DNA from: Flaviramulus sp.
GTDB lineage: Bacteria; Bacteroidota; Bacteroidia; Flavobacteriales; Flavobacteriaceae
Length of the DNA: 64,000 bases
Reading direction: 5' to 3'
NCBI GenBank assembly: GCA_030731745.1
Contig: JANQTJ010000037.1
Location: 2,315 to 66,314 of the forward strand
The first letter of the stretch is position 1; each line of letters opens with the position of its first letter. The position numbers and the translations under genes were made by a program. Below, piece after piece: positions 3,815 through 64,000 of the stretch. The notes beneath the pieces were generated by a model, which was not told where the DNA came from, searched no databases, and saw nothing but the letters and a program-made list of their open reading frames with translations.

Positions 3815-5158
3815 TTATGCTTTTATAGCTATTTCCATGCCTTTAACCGTTTCGTTAAACCGGCCATTATCGAAAACTAAATTTCCATTTACAAAAGTTT
3901 GTTTGATTTCTGTCTGAAACGTAGTTCCTTCTAGTGGCGACCACTTACATTTGTATAAAAGATTGTCTTTAGCAACTGTCCACTTACTGTTTAAATCAAC
4001 CAAAGTCAAGTCCGCATAATAACCTTCTCTGATGAATCCTCTATTTCTCATATTGTATAATACAGCTGGATTATGGCACATTTTCTCAACTATTTTCTCT
4101 AGCGTTATTAGACCTTGTTTGTAAAACTCTAACATACAATTCAGAGCGTGCTGAACCATTGGTGCGCCTGACATTGATTGAAAATAGGGTTTCTCCTTTT
4201 CTTCTAAAGTGTGTGGTGCATGGTCTGTAGTTATAATGTCTATCCTATCGTCAAGTAGAGCTTGTAATAAACCCTGTTTGTCTTGTTCTGTTTTTATGGC
4301 TGGATTCCACTTTATAAGCATGCCAAGTTGGTCATAATCTTTATCTGAAAACCATAAATGTTGTACAGAAACTTCGGTTGTTATTTTTTTCTCTTGTAAA
4401 GGAATGTCATTCTGAAATAGGTGAGTTTCCGCTTCGGTTGTTAAATGTAAAATATGAAGCCTTGCGTTGTGTTTTTGTGCTAAAGTAATAGCGCGTTTAG
4501 TCGCCTCATAACAACCTTCAGCACTTCTAATAATTGGATGAAATTTGGCAGGAATATTTTCTCCATACTTTTCTTTAAAATCATTTTCATTTGCTTCTAT
4601 ATTTTCTTCTTTCTCAGAATGAATAGCAATAATCGATTTGCAGTTAGCAAATAGTTTTTCCATTTTTTCTGGACTGTCAGCTAATAGATTTCCTTTTTTT
4701 GTAAAATATAAGCCGTCATCAGAAACTCCAATAAATTGACTAGTATCCAATTTTATTACATCATCAATATTATCTCCATTAACACCGAGAAAAAAGGAGT
4801 AGTTTGCTAAAGATTTTTGTGAAGCAATTTCATTTTTTTCTCTTAAACTTTCAACGGTTAAAATATTTGGTACTGTATTTGGCATATCAATAAAAGAAGT
4901 CACACCACCTGATACAGCCGCTTTGCTTTCTGTATATAAATCTCCTTTATGGGTAAGTCCAGGATCTCTAAAATGTACCTGTCCATCTATAATTCCTGGA
5001 AATAGGTGTTTACCTGCTCCGTTAATTACTATGTAATGCGGTTTACTATCAATATTTGCAATTTGGTTAATTAGTCCATCTATTAAAAGCACATCAGCTA
5101 CAAATGATTTCCCTTCGTTAACAATTGTAGAACTTTTAATTAAAATACTTTGATTCAT
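3815..5158 (-). CDS. pyrC: Dihydroorotase
   Basis: A 447-residue amidohydrolase that closes carbamoyl-aspartate to dihydroorotate in de novo pyrimidine synthesis. The metal-binding HxH lies in GQVHFRDPG (about 59-67). Further ligands sit in IAIHSEKEEN (about 176), ILHLTTEAET (about 235) and TTDHAPHTLEEK (about 310), followed by the substrate-contact block MSGAPMVQHAL. Length and motifs fit class I (AllB/PyrC-like) dihydroorotases. It lies 131 bp downstream of gltX on the same strand and may be cotranscribed. Allantoinase is the main alternative within the superfamily, but the FRDPG and GAPMVQH motifs favour dihydroorotase. Confidence 0.93.
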   Translation of the reverse strand: MNQSILIKSSTIVNEGKSFVADVLLIDGLINQIANIDSKPHYIVINGAGKHLFPGIIDGQVHFRDPGLTHKGDLYTESKAAVSGGVTSFIDMPNTVPNILTVESLREKNEIASQKSLANYSFFLGVNGDNIDDVIKLDTSQFIGVSDDGLYFTKKGNLLADSPEKMEKLFANCKSIIAIHSEKEENIEANENDFKEKYGENIPAKFHPIIRSAEGCYEATKRAITLAQKHNARLHILHLTTEAETHLFQNDIPLQEKKITTEVSVQHLWFSDKDYDQLGMLIKWNPAIKTEQDKQGLLQALLDDRIDIITTDHAPHTLEEKEKPYFQSMSGAPMVQHALNCMLEFYKQGLITLEKIVEKMCHNPAVLYNMRNRGFIREGYYADLTLVDLNSKWTVAKDNLLYKCKWSPLEGTTFQTEIKQTFVNGNLVFDNGRFNETVKGMEIAIKA

Positions 5159-60002: not shown

Positions 60003-61061
60003 CTAAACATCATCAAAATCAATGACAATACTTGGTGTAGTTGGATGTGCTTGACAGGTTAAAATTAAACCTTCTGCTACTTCATTCTCAGTTAAAATAT
60101 TATTCTGTCTCATAGTAGCACTACCTTCTTTTACACGTGCTAAACAACTGCTACAAATACCGCCTTGACAAGAATAAGGTGCATCTAAATCTTCATCTAA
60201 TGCAGCTTCAAGGATGGTTTGTTTTTGAGACATTTCAAAAGTAGTTGTCTCGTCATCAACAGTAACTGTTATTTTAGTTTTTCCGCTAGCGATATCATCC
60301 TCATCTATTGTTTTATCGGCTTTTGAAGCTTTAAATAATTCGAAATGAATTCTGCTTTCATCAATATCATGCTCAGTTAAAACATTTTTAACTGTATGAA
60401 TCATGGCTTCTGGACCACAAAGATAGAAGGCATCAACGTCTACGTGTTTGTGTTTATTTTTCATAACATAATTAACGGTGCTTTTTTCAATACGACCAAA
60501 AATCGAATCCGTTTCGTCTTGTTGACTAAATACAAACTGAATAGAAAAACGCTCTTTATATTGATGTTGAAGCTCTAAAAGCTCATTTAAAAACATGGTG
60601 TCGTCAGTAGTTTTGTTACCATAAACTAAAATCACTTGACTATGCACTTCTTCTTCCAAAGCACATTTTATAATACTTAAAACAGGAGTTATACCACTAC
60701 CAGCTGCAAAAGCAGCAATATTTTTTGTTTTTGAGTCGTTTGGTTCAAAAATAAATCGCCCTTTTGGTGATGCCACTTCCAGCGCATCTCCAACTTTCAA
60801 AACGTTATTTGCATAGGCCGAAAATGTACCATCAACAACTTCTTTAATCGCTATTTTTAACATACCACTTTTTGGAGAAGCACAAAGCGAATAATCTCTT
60901 CTAACTTCTTTGTCATTAATAGTAGTTTTTAACGTAATATATTGTCCAGCTTTAAATATAAAAGTATCCTGTAGATGATCAGGAACATCAAAAGCAACAC
61001 TGATAGATTTACTGGTTTCTCTAATTATTTCTTTGATTGAAAGTTTATGAAATGACAACAT
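60003..61061 (-). CDS. PaaE-type ferredoxin-NAD(P)H oxidoreductase
   Basis: A 352-residue flavo-iron-sulfur reductase. FAD contacts are RDYSLC (55-60), the NAD(P) loop is GSGITP (121-126), and a C-terminal plant-type [2Fe-2S] domain has Cys298, Cys303, Cys306 and Cys336 (CQGGICSSC). This order is that of PaaE, the reductase of phenylacetyl-CoA epoxidase, and of related electron donors for oxygenases and desaturases. No paaABCD genes are near, so the partner could be a fatty-acid desaturase or the AlkB-like enzyme. It is divergent from a PadR regulator with an inverted repeat between them. Confidence 0.92.
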   Translation of the reverse strand: MLSFHKLSIKEIIRETSKSISVAFDVPDHLQDTFIFKAGQYITLKTTINDKEVRRDYSLCASPKSGMLKIAIKEVVDGTFSAYANNVLKVGDALEVASPKGRFIFEPNDSKTKNIAAFAAGSGITPVLSIIKCALEEEVHSQVILVYGNKTTDDTMFLNELLELQHQYKERFSIQFVFSQQDETDSIFGRIEKSTVNYVMKNKHKHVDVDAFYLCGPEAMIHTVKNVLTEHDIDESRIHFELFKASKADKTIDEDDIASGKTKITVTVDDETTTFEMSQKQTILEAALDEDLDAPYSCQGGICSSCLARVKEGSATMRQNNILTENEVAEGLILTCQAHPTTPSIVIDFDDV

Positions 61062-61076
61062 CTGTTCTTTTTTTTA

Positions 61077-61084
61077 CAAAAATA
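61077..61084 (-). promoter_or_regulatory. TAnnTTTG -7 promoter element for the PaaE-type gene
   Basis: TATTTTTG on the minus strand lies 15 bases before the reductase ATG. The left arm of a divergent inverted repeat (61098-61108) falls in the -33 region. Confidence 0.55.
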
Positions 61085-61097
61085 CTAAAGCGTAAAG

Positions 61098-61162
61098 ATA
61101 TACATAAACATTACTTAAAAAAAAATACCTATAATTCTTATGCATAAGAGATTTATGTATAT
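61098..61162. promoter_or_regulatory. Divergent inverted repeat, candidate PadR operator
   Basis: ATATACATAAA (61098-61108) and its exact complement TTTATGTATAT (61152-61162) face each other across 43 bases between the reductase and padR genes. The right arm overlaps the padR -7 box and the left arm the reductase -33 region. PadR proteins commonly bind ATGT...ACAT-type repeats at their own promoters, so autoregulation and control of the reductase are plausible. Confidence 0.5.
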
Positions 61163-61167
61163 ATTTG
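61160..61167 (+). promoter_or_regulatory. TAnnTTTG -7 promoter element for padR
   Basis: TATATTTG ends four bases before the padR ATG, predicting a leaderless message. It overlaps the right arm of the inverted repeat. Confidence 0.5.
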
Positions 61168-61171
61168 AATT

Positions 61172-61510
61172 ATGGGAAATTCTAATTTATATAAAGGTAG
61201 TTTAACCACCATAATTCTTAAACTACTTGAAGAACATCATAAAATGTACGGTTACGAAATAACCCAAAAAGTTAAAGAACTAACTAAGGGAGAACTTAAA
61301 ATAACTGAAGGCGCTTTGTATCCGTCGCTTCACAAATTGGAGGCAGAAGGACTGTTAGATGTGGAAGTTACTAAAGTTGATAATAGATTAAGAAAATATT
61401 ATAAACTTACGGAGCAAGGAACTAAAGAAACTGTAAATAAATTAAGTGAATTACAAGAATACATTAAAACCATGCAAGCCTTAGTAAATCCTAAATTTGT
61501 TGTAAAATAA
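61172..61510 (+). CDS. PadR family transcriptional regulator
   Basis: A 112-residue winged-helix repressor. LTTIILKLLEEHHKMYGYEI is the first helix pair, ELKITEGALYPSLHKLEAEGL the recognition helix and VDNRLRKYYKLTEQGTKE the wing; the last helix (about 85-107) dimerises. It is the first gene of a unit with two membrane proteins that carry HAAS-like domains; its stop overlaps the next ATG by one base. PadR-HAAS pairs are a known arrangement in which the membrane partner is thought to relay a signal. Confidence 0.94.
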   Translation: MGNSNLYKGSLTTIILKLLEEHHKMYGYEITQKVKELTKGELKITEGALYPSLHKLEAEGLLDVEVTKVDNRLRKYYKLTEQGTKETVNKLSELQEYIKTMQALVNPKFVVK

Positions 61511-62133
61511 TGCAAAGGCTTTCCAGAGAAAATATTCAGTTTATTGATAATTACCTAAAAAATTCGGATGTTTTATTTACAGATATTAGAGTTGAAATGG
61601 TAGATCATGTGGCTTCAGATATGGAAGCTTTAATGAATGAAGGAGATAGCAGGGAGTTTTATTATATTTTCAAGGATTATATGATTAAAAACAAATCTGG
61701 TCTTTTAAAAGATAATAAACAATATTACAAAGCTTCTGATAAGAAAATATTAAGATCCCTCACTAAAAAAGTATGTTCATTTAAAGGGGTTACATTGTTT
61801 TTTTTAATTCTTTTTATTTTTAATTTTATTAATGAATTTTCATTCGTAAAAAATGCGCCAATTGTTGTTATTATTCTTATTGGGATACTTTACTTTTTCT
61901 CAGTCAATAAAAACAAAGAACGCTATTCTTCAGTCGAGCGCATTACTTTTTATTTTATGATAATTTATTATATAATCAATGTTTTTAAAATTACTAATTT
62001 TAATTATGAGACAGTCATAATTATGAATTTAACAAGATTGAAAATAGTATCGGCACTCATCATTTTTGTTTTAATCATGTTGTTTATTACAGGATTTGAG
62101 TTTAAAAAAGAATATGAACTGAAGTATAAATAG
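61510..62133 (+). CDS. HAAS-like membrane protein, first paralogue
   Basis: A 207-residue protein. The N-terminal helical domain (1-80) contains VEMVDHVASDMEA (28-40), the same core as in the next gene, and resembles the HAAS domain that accompanies PadR regulators. Four hydrophobic segments follow (about 93-200). It is translated by a TAATG junction with padR. The sequence of the membrane part is not conserved with the second paralogue. A signalling or anti-regulator role is inferred from context. Confidence 0.72.
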   Translation: MQRLSRENIQFIDNYLKNSDVLFTDIRVEMVDHVASDMEALMNEGDSREFYYIFKDYMIKNKSGLLKDNKQYYKASDKKILRSLTKKVCSFKGVTLFFLILFIFNFINEFSFVKNAPIVVIILIGILYFFSVNKNKERYSSVERITFYFMIIYYIINVFKITNFNYETVIIMNLTRLKIVSALIIFVLIMLFITGFEFKKEYELKYK

Positions 62134-62201
62134 TTTATTACGGATGAACTAAACTAAAGAAGTAATAAAATTTATAAAGAAAGTTATAGGTTATTTATTT
62201 A

Positions 62202-62891
62202 ATGAAAATTAGTCAAGAACAAATAGAAGATTTGTATGCTTTTACAAGAAAGCATTTTGTAGAATGGTATGATTTACAATCAGAATTGGTAGATCATTTA
62301 GCTAATGATATTGAAGCGGTCTGGGAAGAAACGCCAACATTATCTTACACCGAAGCAAGAGACCGTGCATTTAAAAAATTTGGTGTTTTTGGTTTTATGG
62401 ATGTTATTGAAAAACGTCAAAAATCCATTAGTAAGCGTTATACTAAATACTTGTTTACAGAATTAAAAAAATGGTTTCAAATCCCCCAAATAGTAGCAAC
62501 TCTGGCTTTGTTTTTATTTTTTTTCGTATCATTTTCATCTGGTATTTCAGAGTATTTATTAATAAGCTATTACATAATCGCTATAATATGGAGTAGTTAC
62601 AAAGGTATTCAATTAAACAGAGAATTTAGAAGAAGAAAAGAACAATCAAATAAAAAATGGTTGTTAGAAGAGATTATTTTTAGACAAGCAGGAGGTATTG
62701 GTTTTTTGTTTGTTGCTCAAATAGGTAATATTTACAATATGTCAGATTGGTTATTTAACGAAACTTATGTGATAATAATAACGTCTTTAGTTGCAACATT
62801 ACTGTGCTTAATTAATTATATTAGCTTTCAAGTAATACCAAACAAAGCAGAAAATTTATTAAAAGAAACCTATCCTGAGTTTGTTTTGTAA
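62202..62891 (+). CDS. HAAS-like membrane protein, second paralogue
   Basis: A 229-residue protein with an N-terminal helical domain (1-75) containing SELVDHLANDIEAV (27-40) and TEARDRAFKKFGVFGF, and about four hydrophobic segments from residue 96. The shared E-[ML]-V-D-H-[VL]-A-[SN]-D-[MI]-E-A core with the preceding gene shows duplication of the module. It is separated from it by 68 bp without a clear promoter, so cotranscription from padR is likely. Confidence 0.72.
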   Translation: MKISQEQIEDLYAFTRKHFVEWYDLQSELVDHLANDIEAVWEETPTLSYTEARDRAFKKFGVFGFMDVIEKRQKSISKRYTKYLFTELKKWFQIPQIVATLALFLFFFVSFSSGISEYLLISYYIIAIIWSSYKGIQLNREFRRRKEQSNKKWLLEEIIFRQAGGIGFLFVAQIGNIYNMSDWLFNETYVIIITSLVATLLCLINYISFQVIPNKAENLLKETYPEFVL

Positions 62892-62946: not shown

Positions 62947-63354
62947 ATGAAAAAAATTTTATTATTATGCACATTTGTTTTAGCAATTTCTACTCAAGTT
63001 AACGCACAAGACAATACAGATTTTAAAAAAGAAACCGTAGAGTTTTTAAAACTTACTGGTGCTGGTGAAGCTTTTGAAAATGCCATTGGTCAAATTGGTG
63101 CTATGGTTTCTGAAGAAAATAAAGCGGCTTATATTAAAGAAGCTCTAGGCACACTAGACAGGTTATATGATAAAATGGCGAACCTTTATATGGAAGAATT
63201 TACTCAAAACGAAATTAAAGAACTCGTAACATTTTATAATACAGATTTAGGTAAAAAATTAGCAACCAAACAATTGGACTTAACACAAAAAGCGATGATG
63301 TTTGGTCAGTCTTGGGGTATGGAAGTACAGGGCATTGCTCAAAAATATAACTAA
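62947..63354 (+). CDS. DUF2059-type periplasmic protein
   Basis: A 135-residue protein read from ATG 62947; an upstream in-frame ATG would add 22 residues before an obvious signal peptide (MKKILLLCTFVLAISTQVNA, cleavage before QDN) and is rejected. The mature helical part has ETVEFLKLTGAGEAFENAIG and LYMEEFTQNEIKELVTFYNT, typical of DUF2059, and lacks further motifs. The function is unknown; it follows the HAAS pair on the same strand. Confidence 0.85.
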   Translation: MKKILLLCTFVLAISTQVNAQDNTDFKKETVEFLKLTGAGEAFENAIGQIGAMVSEENKAAYIKEALGTLDRLYDKMANLYMEEFTQNEIKELVTFYNTDLGKKLATKQLDLTQKAMMFGQSWGMEVQGIAQKYN

Positions 63355-63363
63355 CAAAATCGT

Positions 63364-64000
63364 ATGATAAAGCTTTTTTTAAGTTTAGAATGGAAATCTT
63401 TTTTAAGATCAGCAAGCTTTGGTAAAAGCTTAGGAATTAAAATTTTTATGGGATTTCTTTCACTTTATTTCATAGGTGTTTTTTTAATTATGGGTATAGC
63501 TTTGTATCCAGGGTTAAAAAAAGCATTCCCAGATAATGATCCCTTACTCATTGTTAATAGCATTATTTTTTATTGGATTTTAGCCGATTTAGTTTTGAGG
63601 TTTTTTTTCCAGAAACTCCCAGTAATGAGTGTAAAACCACTTTTAATACTACCCATAAAACGCAGAAATGTTGTAAATTTTGTGTTAGGAAAATCGGCCT
63701 TATCATTTTTTAACTTTCTACCGTTATTTGCAATATTTCCTTTCGGAATTACCTTAATATTGAAAGATTATCCAACAGGTTCTGTTTTAGTTTGGATGTT
63801 GGCATTGATTTTAGTAACCCTCATCATCAATTTTTTAAACTTTATTTTAGAAAGTTTTTCCGCGGAGACAGAGCTGTCTTTTCTGCCTATTATTCTCTTA
63901 ACTGGAGGTTTGTATGCGCTTAATCATTTTAATATTATTTCTTTTAATGAAATAATTGGGCAAGGATTTAATGCTATTTACCAATCTCCAATGCTTGTTT
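63364..64000 (+). CDS. DUF5687 family membrane protein, truncated by window end
   Basis: At least 212 codons, open to the last base. It begins MIKLFLSLEWKSFLRSASFG and shows hydrophobic segments around 30-50, 64-80, 110-130 and 140-160. KPLLILPIKRRNVVNFVLGK between the second and third is the cytoplasmic block I associate with DUF5687, a Bacteroidota permease-like family usually followed by an ABC ATPase gene. It starts 9 bp after the DUF2059 gene. The rest and any ATPase partner lie beyond the window. Confidence 0.8.
   Translation, partial: MIKLFLSLEWKSFLRSASFGKSLGIKIFMGFLSLYFIGVFLIMGIALYPGLKKAFPDNDPLLIVNSIIFYWILADLVLRFFFQKLPVMSVKPLLILPIKRRNVVNFVLGKSALSFFNFLPLFAIFPFGITLILKDYPTGSVLVWMLALILVTLIINFLNFILESFSAETELSFLPIILLTGGLYALNHFNIISFNEIIGQGFNAIYQSPMLV

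Follow-up and report, generated by a model that had tools for sequence, protein, structure and literature searches.

A double-palindrome element at the padR promoter of Flavobacteriaceae, between putative membrane-partner genes and a divergent reductase

Several described systems pair a PadR regulator with membrane proteins. HAAS-PadR-like wHTH systems combine a standalone PadR with a neighbouring protein whose N-terminus is a helical domain and whose membrane part has several helices, and such HAAS-PadR pairs have been proposed as an alternative to two-component signalling (PMC11237479), although no tested mechanism is found in the available text of that paper. In Listeria, the main targets of repression by LltR and LstR are the operons to which these regulators belong, which encode membrane proteins (PMC6624303), and the promoter of the Clostridioides difficile cdPadR1 gene holds two inverted repeats, with a 21-bp motif, to which cdPadR1 itself binds (PMC5050560). 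Here we compare with these systems a padR locus in a 64,000-nucleotide stretch of Flaviramulus sp. DNA, the whole of which is referred to below as the window. In the reading that we favour, with a probability of roughly 0.62, PadR would autorepress through a double palindrome, the products of the adjoining VDH genes would serve as its membrane partners, and the adjacent reductase would be controlled as well.

The padR locus and its candidate operator

The padR gene (61172-61510, plus strand) matches PF03551 with an E-value of 4.1e-21 and 75.2 bits against a curated cut-off of 27, and PadR chains of known structure match its product with E-values down to 2.3e-10. Its stop overlaps by one base the gene for a HAAS-like membrane protein, VDH protein 1 (61510-62133, plus strand), which is followed on the same strand by genes for a second one, VDH protein 2 (62202-62891), a DUF2059 protein (62947-63354; PF09832), homologues of which occur in 9 of 80 relatives, and a DUF5687 membrane protein (63364-64000; PF18940, E-value = 2.8e-191), cut by the window end. 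Divergently from padR, a PaaE-type flavin/2Fe-2S NAD(P)H reductase is encoded on the minus strand (60003-61061). ORFs and domain matches thus confirm the gene layout of the original prediction, namely, a PadR, two membrane paralogues and a divergent PaaE-type reductase. The window genome consists of 46 contigs and is 75% complete, and its closest padR relatives are Flavobacteriaceae. For comparison we used the 80 relatives, out of 209, whose PadR is most similar (79-93% identity), a sample rich in Winogradskyella and Tenacibaculum.

Comparison of the window with the 80 padR loci revealed an element at 61125-61160 that is composed of two overlapping 21-bp palindromes, each of 9-3-9 design, with centres 15 bp apart (consensus ATACCTAAGnnnCTTATRCATAAGnnnATTATGTAT). 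In the window, palindrome A (ATACCTATA-ATT-CTTATGCAT, 61125-61145, plus strand) is complementary at 5 of 9 positions and palindrome B (ATGCATAAG-AGA-TTTATGTAT, 61140-61160, plus strand) at 7 of 9, the family mean being 7.4/9. Of the 81 loci, 80 have an element upstream of padR with a score of 22/32 or higher, whereas shuffled sequences reach 20 at most; in the single miss, L034, the spacer is shorter. Here the half-sites run ACAT...ATGT, opposite to the ATGT/ACAT repeats that PMC5050560 cites for other PadR regulators, a point against the favoured reading.

The flavobacterial -7 consensus, TAnnTTTG, is located at -12 to -5 (PMC9723704), and together with the sequence itself it defines the predicted padR -7 box, TATATTTG (61160-61167, plus strand). 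The element spans the padR -33 region and reaches this box. Because it lies on padR's own promoter, we infer first of all autorepression: the layout at padR is that of an autorepressor, and PadR would be expected to bind there and to repress. As a separate observation, given this -7 box, transcription would start at the first base of the padR ATG (61160-61172), and the padR mRNA is accordingly predicted to be leaderless; the element lies 44-50 bp from the padR ATG in many relatives, which would also be nearly leaderless.

We consider it improbable that a regulator other than PadR occupies the element, or that UP-like and -33 sequence make it chiefly an elaborate promoter. Such a reading would fit the overlap with -33 and -7 sequence and the A/T tract that flanks the element. 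However, the element is palindromic, its half-sites ATACATAA and ATACCTAA interchange between loci, and a further complete palindrome follows the -7 box in seven Tenacibaculum-group loci. Furthermore, it is essentially confined to padR: the core pattern TATRCATAAGNNNNTTATGTAT, with at most one mismatch, is found in 71 of 299 family genomes, and of its 74 occurrences 64 precede a padR homologue by 9-161 bp, the other ten carrying one mismatch. In the window genome the core pattern occurs only once, a looser search otherwise returning background. We examined 76 of the 93 padR matches (75 plus the window), leaving out those weaker than 1.5e-41 and one (G250:C1) at a contig edge with an internal stop; 29 of the 93, partly distant paralogues, are without the element at the pattern used.

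The original prediction had placed the operator elsewhere, in an exact 11-bp inverted repeat with 43 bp between its arms, each arm overlapping a promoter element of one gene. The arms, ATATACATAAA (61098-61108, plus strand) and TTTATGTATAT (61152-61162), are indeed present, and the claimed overlaps hold, since the right arm touches the padR -7 box and the left one is found near -33 of the reductase promoter. That they form an operator closed by a DNA loop is nevertheless very hard to credit. The arms are exact, an 11-bp repeat of such kind arises in just 1.8% of 3000 dinucleotide shuffles (110-bp gap), and the left arm includes the half-site-like ATACATAA. Yet this arm is an isolated 11-mer conserved no better than shuffled DNA, on which ground we rejected the 11-bp repeat as the operator: among 74 paaE-bearing relatives, 7, 8, 9 and 10 of its 11 bases are matched upstream of the element in 21, 37, 13 and 3 loci, against 27, 35, 10 and 2 after shuffling, and by eye it is absent from the closest relative (L033, PadR 93% identical). 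The right arm is conserved as part of the stronger element, its larger portion falling within the right half of palindrome B, and the sequence conserved as its partner is that at 61140-61148, 3 bp off, rather than that at 61098-61108. The arms are therefore not confirmed as a functional pair. Where relatives keep the gene order the 11-bp repeat is missing, which is not the case for the corrected element, and it is from the latter that PadR would act in the reading favoured here.

The divergent reductase and its distance from the element

The reductase ORF has FAD, NAD and 2Fe-2S domains (PF00970, PF00175 and PF00111). It shares domain order with PaaE, the phenylacetyl-CoA epoxidase reductase, and matches TIGR02160 over the full length, but at 344.8 bits stays below the family cut-off of 420.8. 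PF05138, which would indicate PaaA/PaaC, has no match in the 75% complete window genome, leaving a role in phenylacetate metabolism unsupported. The paaE gene is divergent to padR in 74 of the 80 relatives, six loci having no paaE within 600 bp; in the set of 76, 14 loci are without a reductase in the 1.8 kb upstream, some of them with a weak element. In five loci (L084, L097, L106, L110 and L112), the place of paaE is taken by a same-strand ORF of 119 aa (seen in three), behind a divergent gene of ~700 aa; judging from its WCGPC motif, the 119-aa product is presumably thioredoxin-like.

The predicted -7 box of the reductase, TATTTTTG (61077-61084, minus strand), is based on the sequence and on a TAnnTTTG box being present in 65 of the 74 relatives whose paaE is divergent, a survey in which the element of L034 was misplaced owing to its shorter spacer. 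To measure distances we selected 41 loci in which the element scores at least 24, paaE is no more than 160 bp away and a single TAnnTTTG box occurs within 45 nt of the paaE ATG. The element lies 48-51 bp from the reductase -7 box in 37 of them (SD 0.8 among the 37), in contrast to an SD of 4.8 for the distance from box to paaE ATG and of 32 for that from element to padR ATG. Even loci with the element 151, 162 or 183 bp from the padR ATG retain a reductase spacing of 49-50 bp. A distance so constant despite variable leaders suggests that the element matters for the reductase promoter too. In the wider set of 65 loci with a box (from the best 80 of 209), the spacing is 48-52 bp in 40. The Winogradskyella group supplies 26 of the 65 loci but only 6 of these 40, the other 34 coming from the 39 loci of different affiliation; its remaining 20 loci show 61-118 bp, and this drift means that coupling to paaE is not universal. 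The tight geometry probably reflects selection on distance, in which case whatever binds the element would control the reductase, the constraint being relaxed in Winogradskyella; shared ancestry is the chief competing explanation. What comparison of related loci shows is that the element exists, that it is tied to padR, that it overlies the predicted padR promoter and that it keeps a constant spacing to the predicted reductase -7 box.

Alternatively, PadR may control its own operon only, the reductase spacing being a product of inherited gene order with few indels or of two promoters avoiding collision; we regard this as possible, though doubtful. In its favour, the element is kept beside padR where paaE is absent, and 16 unlinked paaE-like genes, found in 12 of the 14 genomes without an adjacent reductase and some of them paralogues, have no element in the 500 bp upstream, with best scores of 17-21. 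The drift in Winogradskyella points the same way, and shared ancestry may partly account for the constant spacing. Against it, the spacing holds within ~1 bp across many genera, while both leaders vary and the spacer near the -33 zone is almost at background identity (0.36 versus 0.31 shuffled), only the A/T tract beside the element being conserved; moreover, collision avoidance would need just a minimum length. Helical phasing of the 18 distinct spacing values outside 48-51 bp is a hint and no more: at 10.5 bp R is 0.47 (p 0.008), but grouping the values into 10 clusters raises p to 0.10, and a period of 11.5 bp gives a higher R. On balance, PadR probably switches both its own operon and the neighbouring reductase. 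The original idea of a PadR/membrane module with shared divergent control survives in the shared element (37/41 loci at constant spacing); the operator it named does not, and it was incomplete in that the padR operon is the more direct target.

Two further features of the intergenic region were noted. On the paaE strand (61060-61125), GCTTC is conserved just upstream of the -7 box and an A/T tract is found at ~-50; they may form a promoter element of extended or UP-like type. Several Winogradskyella loci (L037, L046, L051 and L058, for example) contain short inverted repeats of the GACCT...AGGTC type between paaE and the element, which may be insertions behind the drifted spacing.

VDH membrane proteins and the downstream operon

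The two membrane proteins share an N-terminal VDH domain (VDHVASDMEALM in protein 1 and VDHLANDIEAVW in protein 2), and profile analysis placed the relatives of both in one family. Residues D24, E28, D31 and H32 (protein 2 numbering) are invariant in 89 family sequences, both window proteins included. An AlphaFold2 model of protein 2 (pLDDT 92.1) predicts helices 5-17, 23-43 and 49-91, obtained again for the N-domain alone; this three-helix domain would be cytosolic, and the further long helices are likely to be four membrane passes. A match to VDH protein 2 is encoded in 24 of the 119 genomes searched, its own among them. One to four VDH ORFs are found in the 3-kb flank downstream of padR in 78 of 80 loci, the first almost abutting padR in most; of the two misses, one (L112) ends soon after padR. 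In Flavivirga jejuensis (L062, 3339-3800), padR and the element are present without a VDH gene, and ~460 bp without recognisable ORF precede DUF2059; this, too, tells against the favoured reading.

The original prediction regarded these paralogues as HAAS-like. The three-helix plan agrees with the three core helices proposed for HAAS (PMC11237479), but it does not establish membership in that family. Neither window protein matches Pfam HAAS or HAAS_TM, scans of 30 full-length members and of 58 N-domains (E-value up to 10) show no Pfam HAAS among the top 25 families by frequency, and PF08006 is not found in the window genome. Classical HAAS proteins from the relatives have invariant G80 and P82, whereas the GxP motif of the third helix is missing from VDH proteins, whose consensus there is KKFGxFGF with no conserved proline. 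The HMM comparison that had been suggested as a check produced no Pfam match, and hhalign of VDH against classical HAAS, although it aligned helices 1-2 in register, gave E-values of only 0.03-0.09 (0.093, 0.028 and 0.036) at a probability below 2%. PDB fold searches with the whole model and the N-domain returned nothing at E-value up to 0.001, the VIA-align rows being helical look-alikes, and the best PDB hit of the VDH profile in a sequence search had E-value = 0.3. VDH genes adjoin a standalone PadR, as HAAS genes do. Given the three-helix plan on the one hand, and the lack of a Pfam match and of GxP together with the weak profile score on the other, it is reasonable to say that VDH proteins work like HAAS, not that they are HAAS.

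PF22564 was also considered as the VDH family (99 relatives) and discarded, since the translated matches above its cut-off are classical HAAS proteins, mostly of ~580 aa and HAAS-PspC-like, not VDH. Elsewhere in the window genome (L002, G000:C38), a second, classical PadR is followed by a HAAS-PspC-LiaI/LiaF-ToastRack protein.

Past the window end, the DUF5687 gene is complete (L113, 2679-4157) and is followed 12 bp on by an ABC ATPase gene (4169-4864; PF00005, E-value = 2e-22), so that, as read from the sequence, the padR operon extends into a predicted ABC-type exporter composed of DUF5687 and the ATPase. For DUF5687, nothing was found in the literature searched. Downstream of padR, 61 of the 80 loci encode it, but other genes occupy the position in many from Tenacibaculum, and the minimal unit is thus padR plus the VDH proteins. 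Beyond the exporter (L113, 4991-7552 and on) lie genes for a TPR protein, which we take to be SprE/PorW, a small ORF and genes that are ATP synthase-like by sequence.

A putative membrane-to-DNA circuit and its relation to known PadR systems

In the favoured reading, PadR dimers would bind the two overlapping palindromes, over the -33 region and touching the -7 box of their own gene, and repress padR, the VDH genes and then, in the window genome, DUF2059 and the DUF5687/ATPase exporter. Of the steps proposed, this is the one that comparison backs well, the rest being more conjectural. The VDH proteins, most likely PadR's membrane partners, would hold or release PadR upon a membrane or envelope cue, and derepression would yield more VDH protein, PadR and exporter. 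The element would lie at ~-55 to -90 of the reductase promoter, where PadR, or PadR together with RNA polymerase, could control the reductase. More tentatively, one may envisage a membrane-to-DNA switch, distinct from the classical HAAS system of the same cell, in which one operator represses the exporter operon and, at a constant rotational setting on the DNA, governs the reductase, export and electron supply thereby answering an envelope cue jointly.

Conserved among numerous marine Flavobacteriaceae, the locus is a compact case: its candidate operator is defined, its putative partners belong to an unannotated family and the predicted spacing is sharp, so that simple mutants could test membrane-to-PadR signalling and dual promoter control. 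The literature searched, most subscription papers lying outside its scope, yielded no description of the family-wide operator, of the reductase spacing or of the VDH family. Compared with HAAS-PadR-like systems, VDH proteins lack GxP and, among the members scanned, a Pfam HAAS match, and a classical PadR-HAAS-PspC-ToastRack locus exists separately in the same genome. With LltR and LstR the locus would share a PadR repressor and an autoregulated membrane-protein operon, but those regulators are Gram-positive, act with other membrane proteins and, in the available text, are not described with a divergent reductase at fixed spacing (PMC6624303). The cdPadR1 motif is TACT/AGTA with ~200 genomic matches (PMC5050560), whereas the pattern described here is almost restricted to one place per genome. 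The VDH family, which would supply PadR's partners, is unannotated, and the system is a variation on the known kind in which PadR is joined to a membrane partner.
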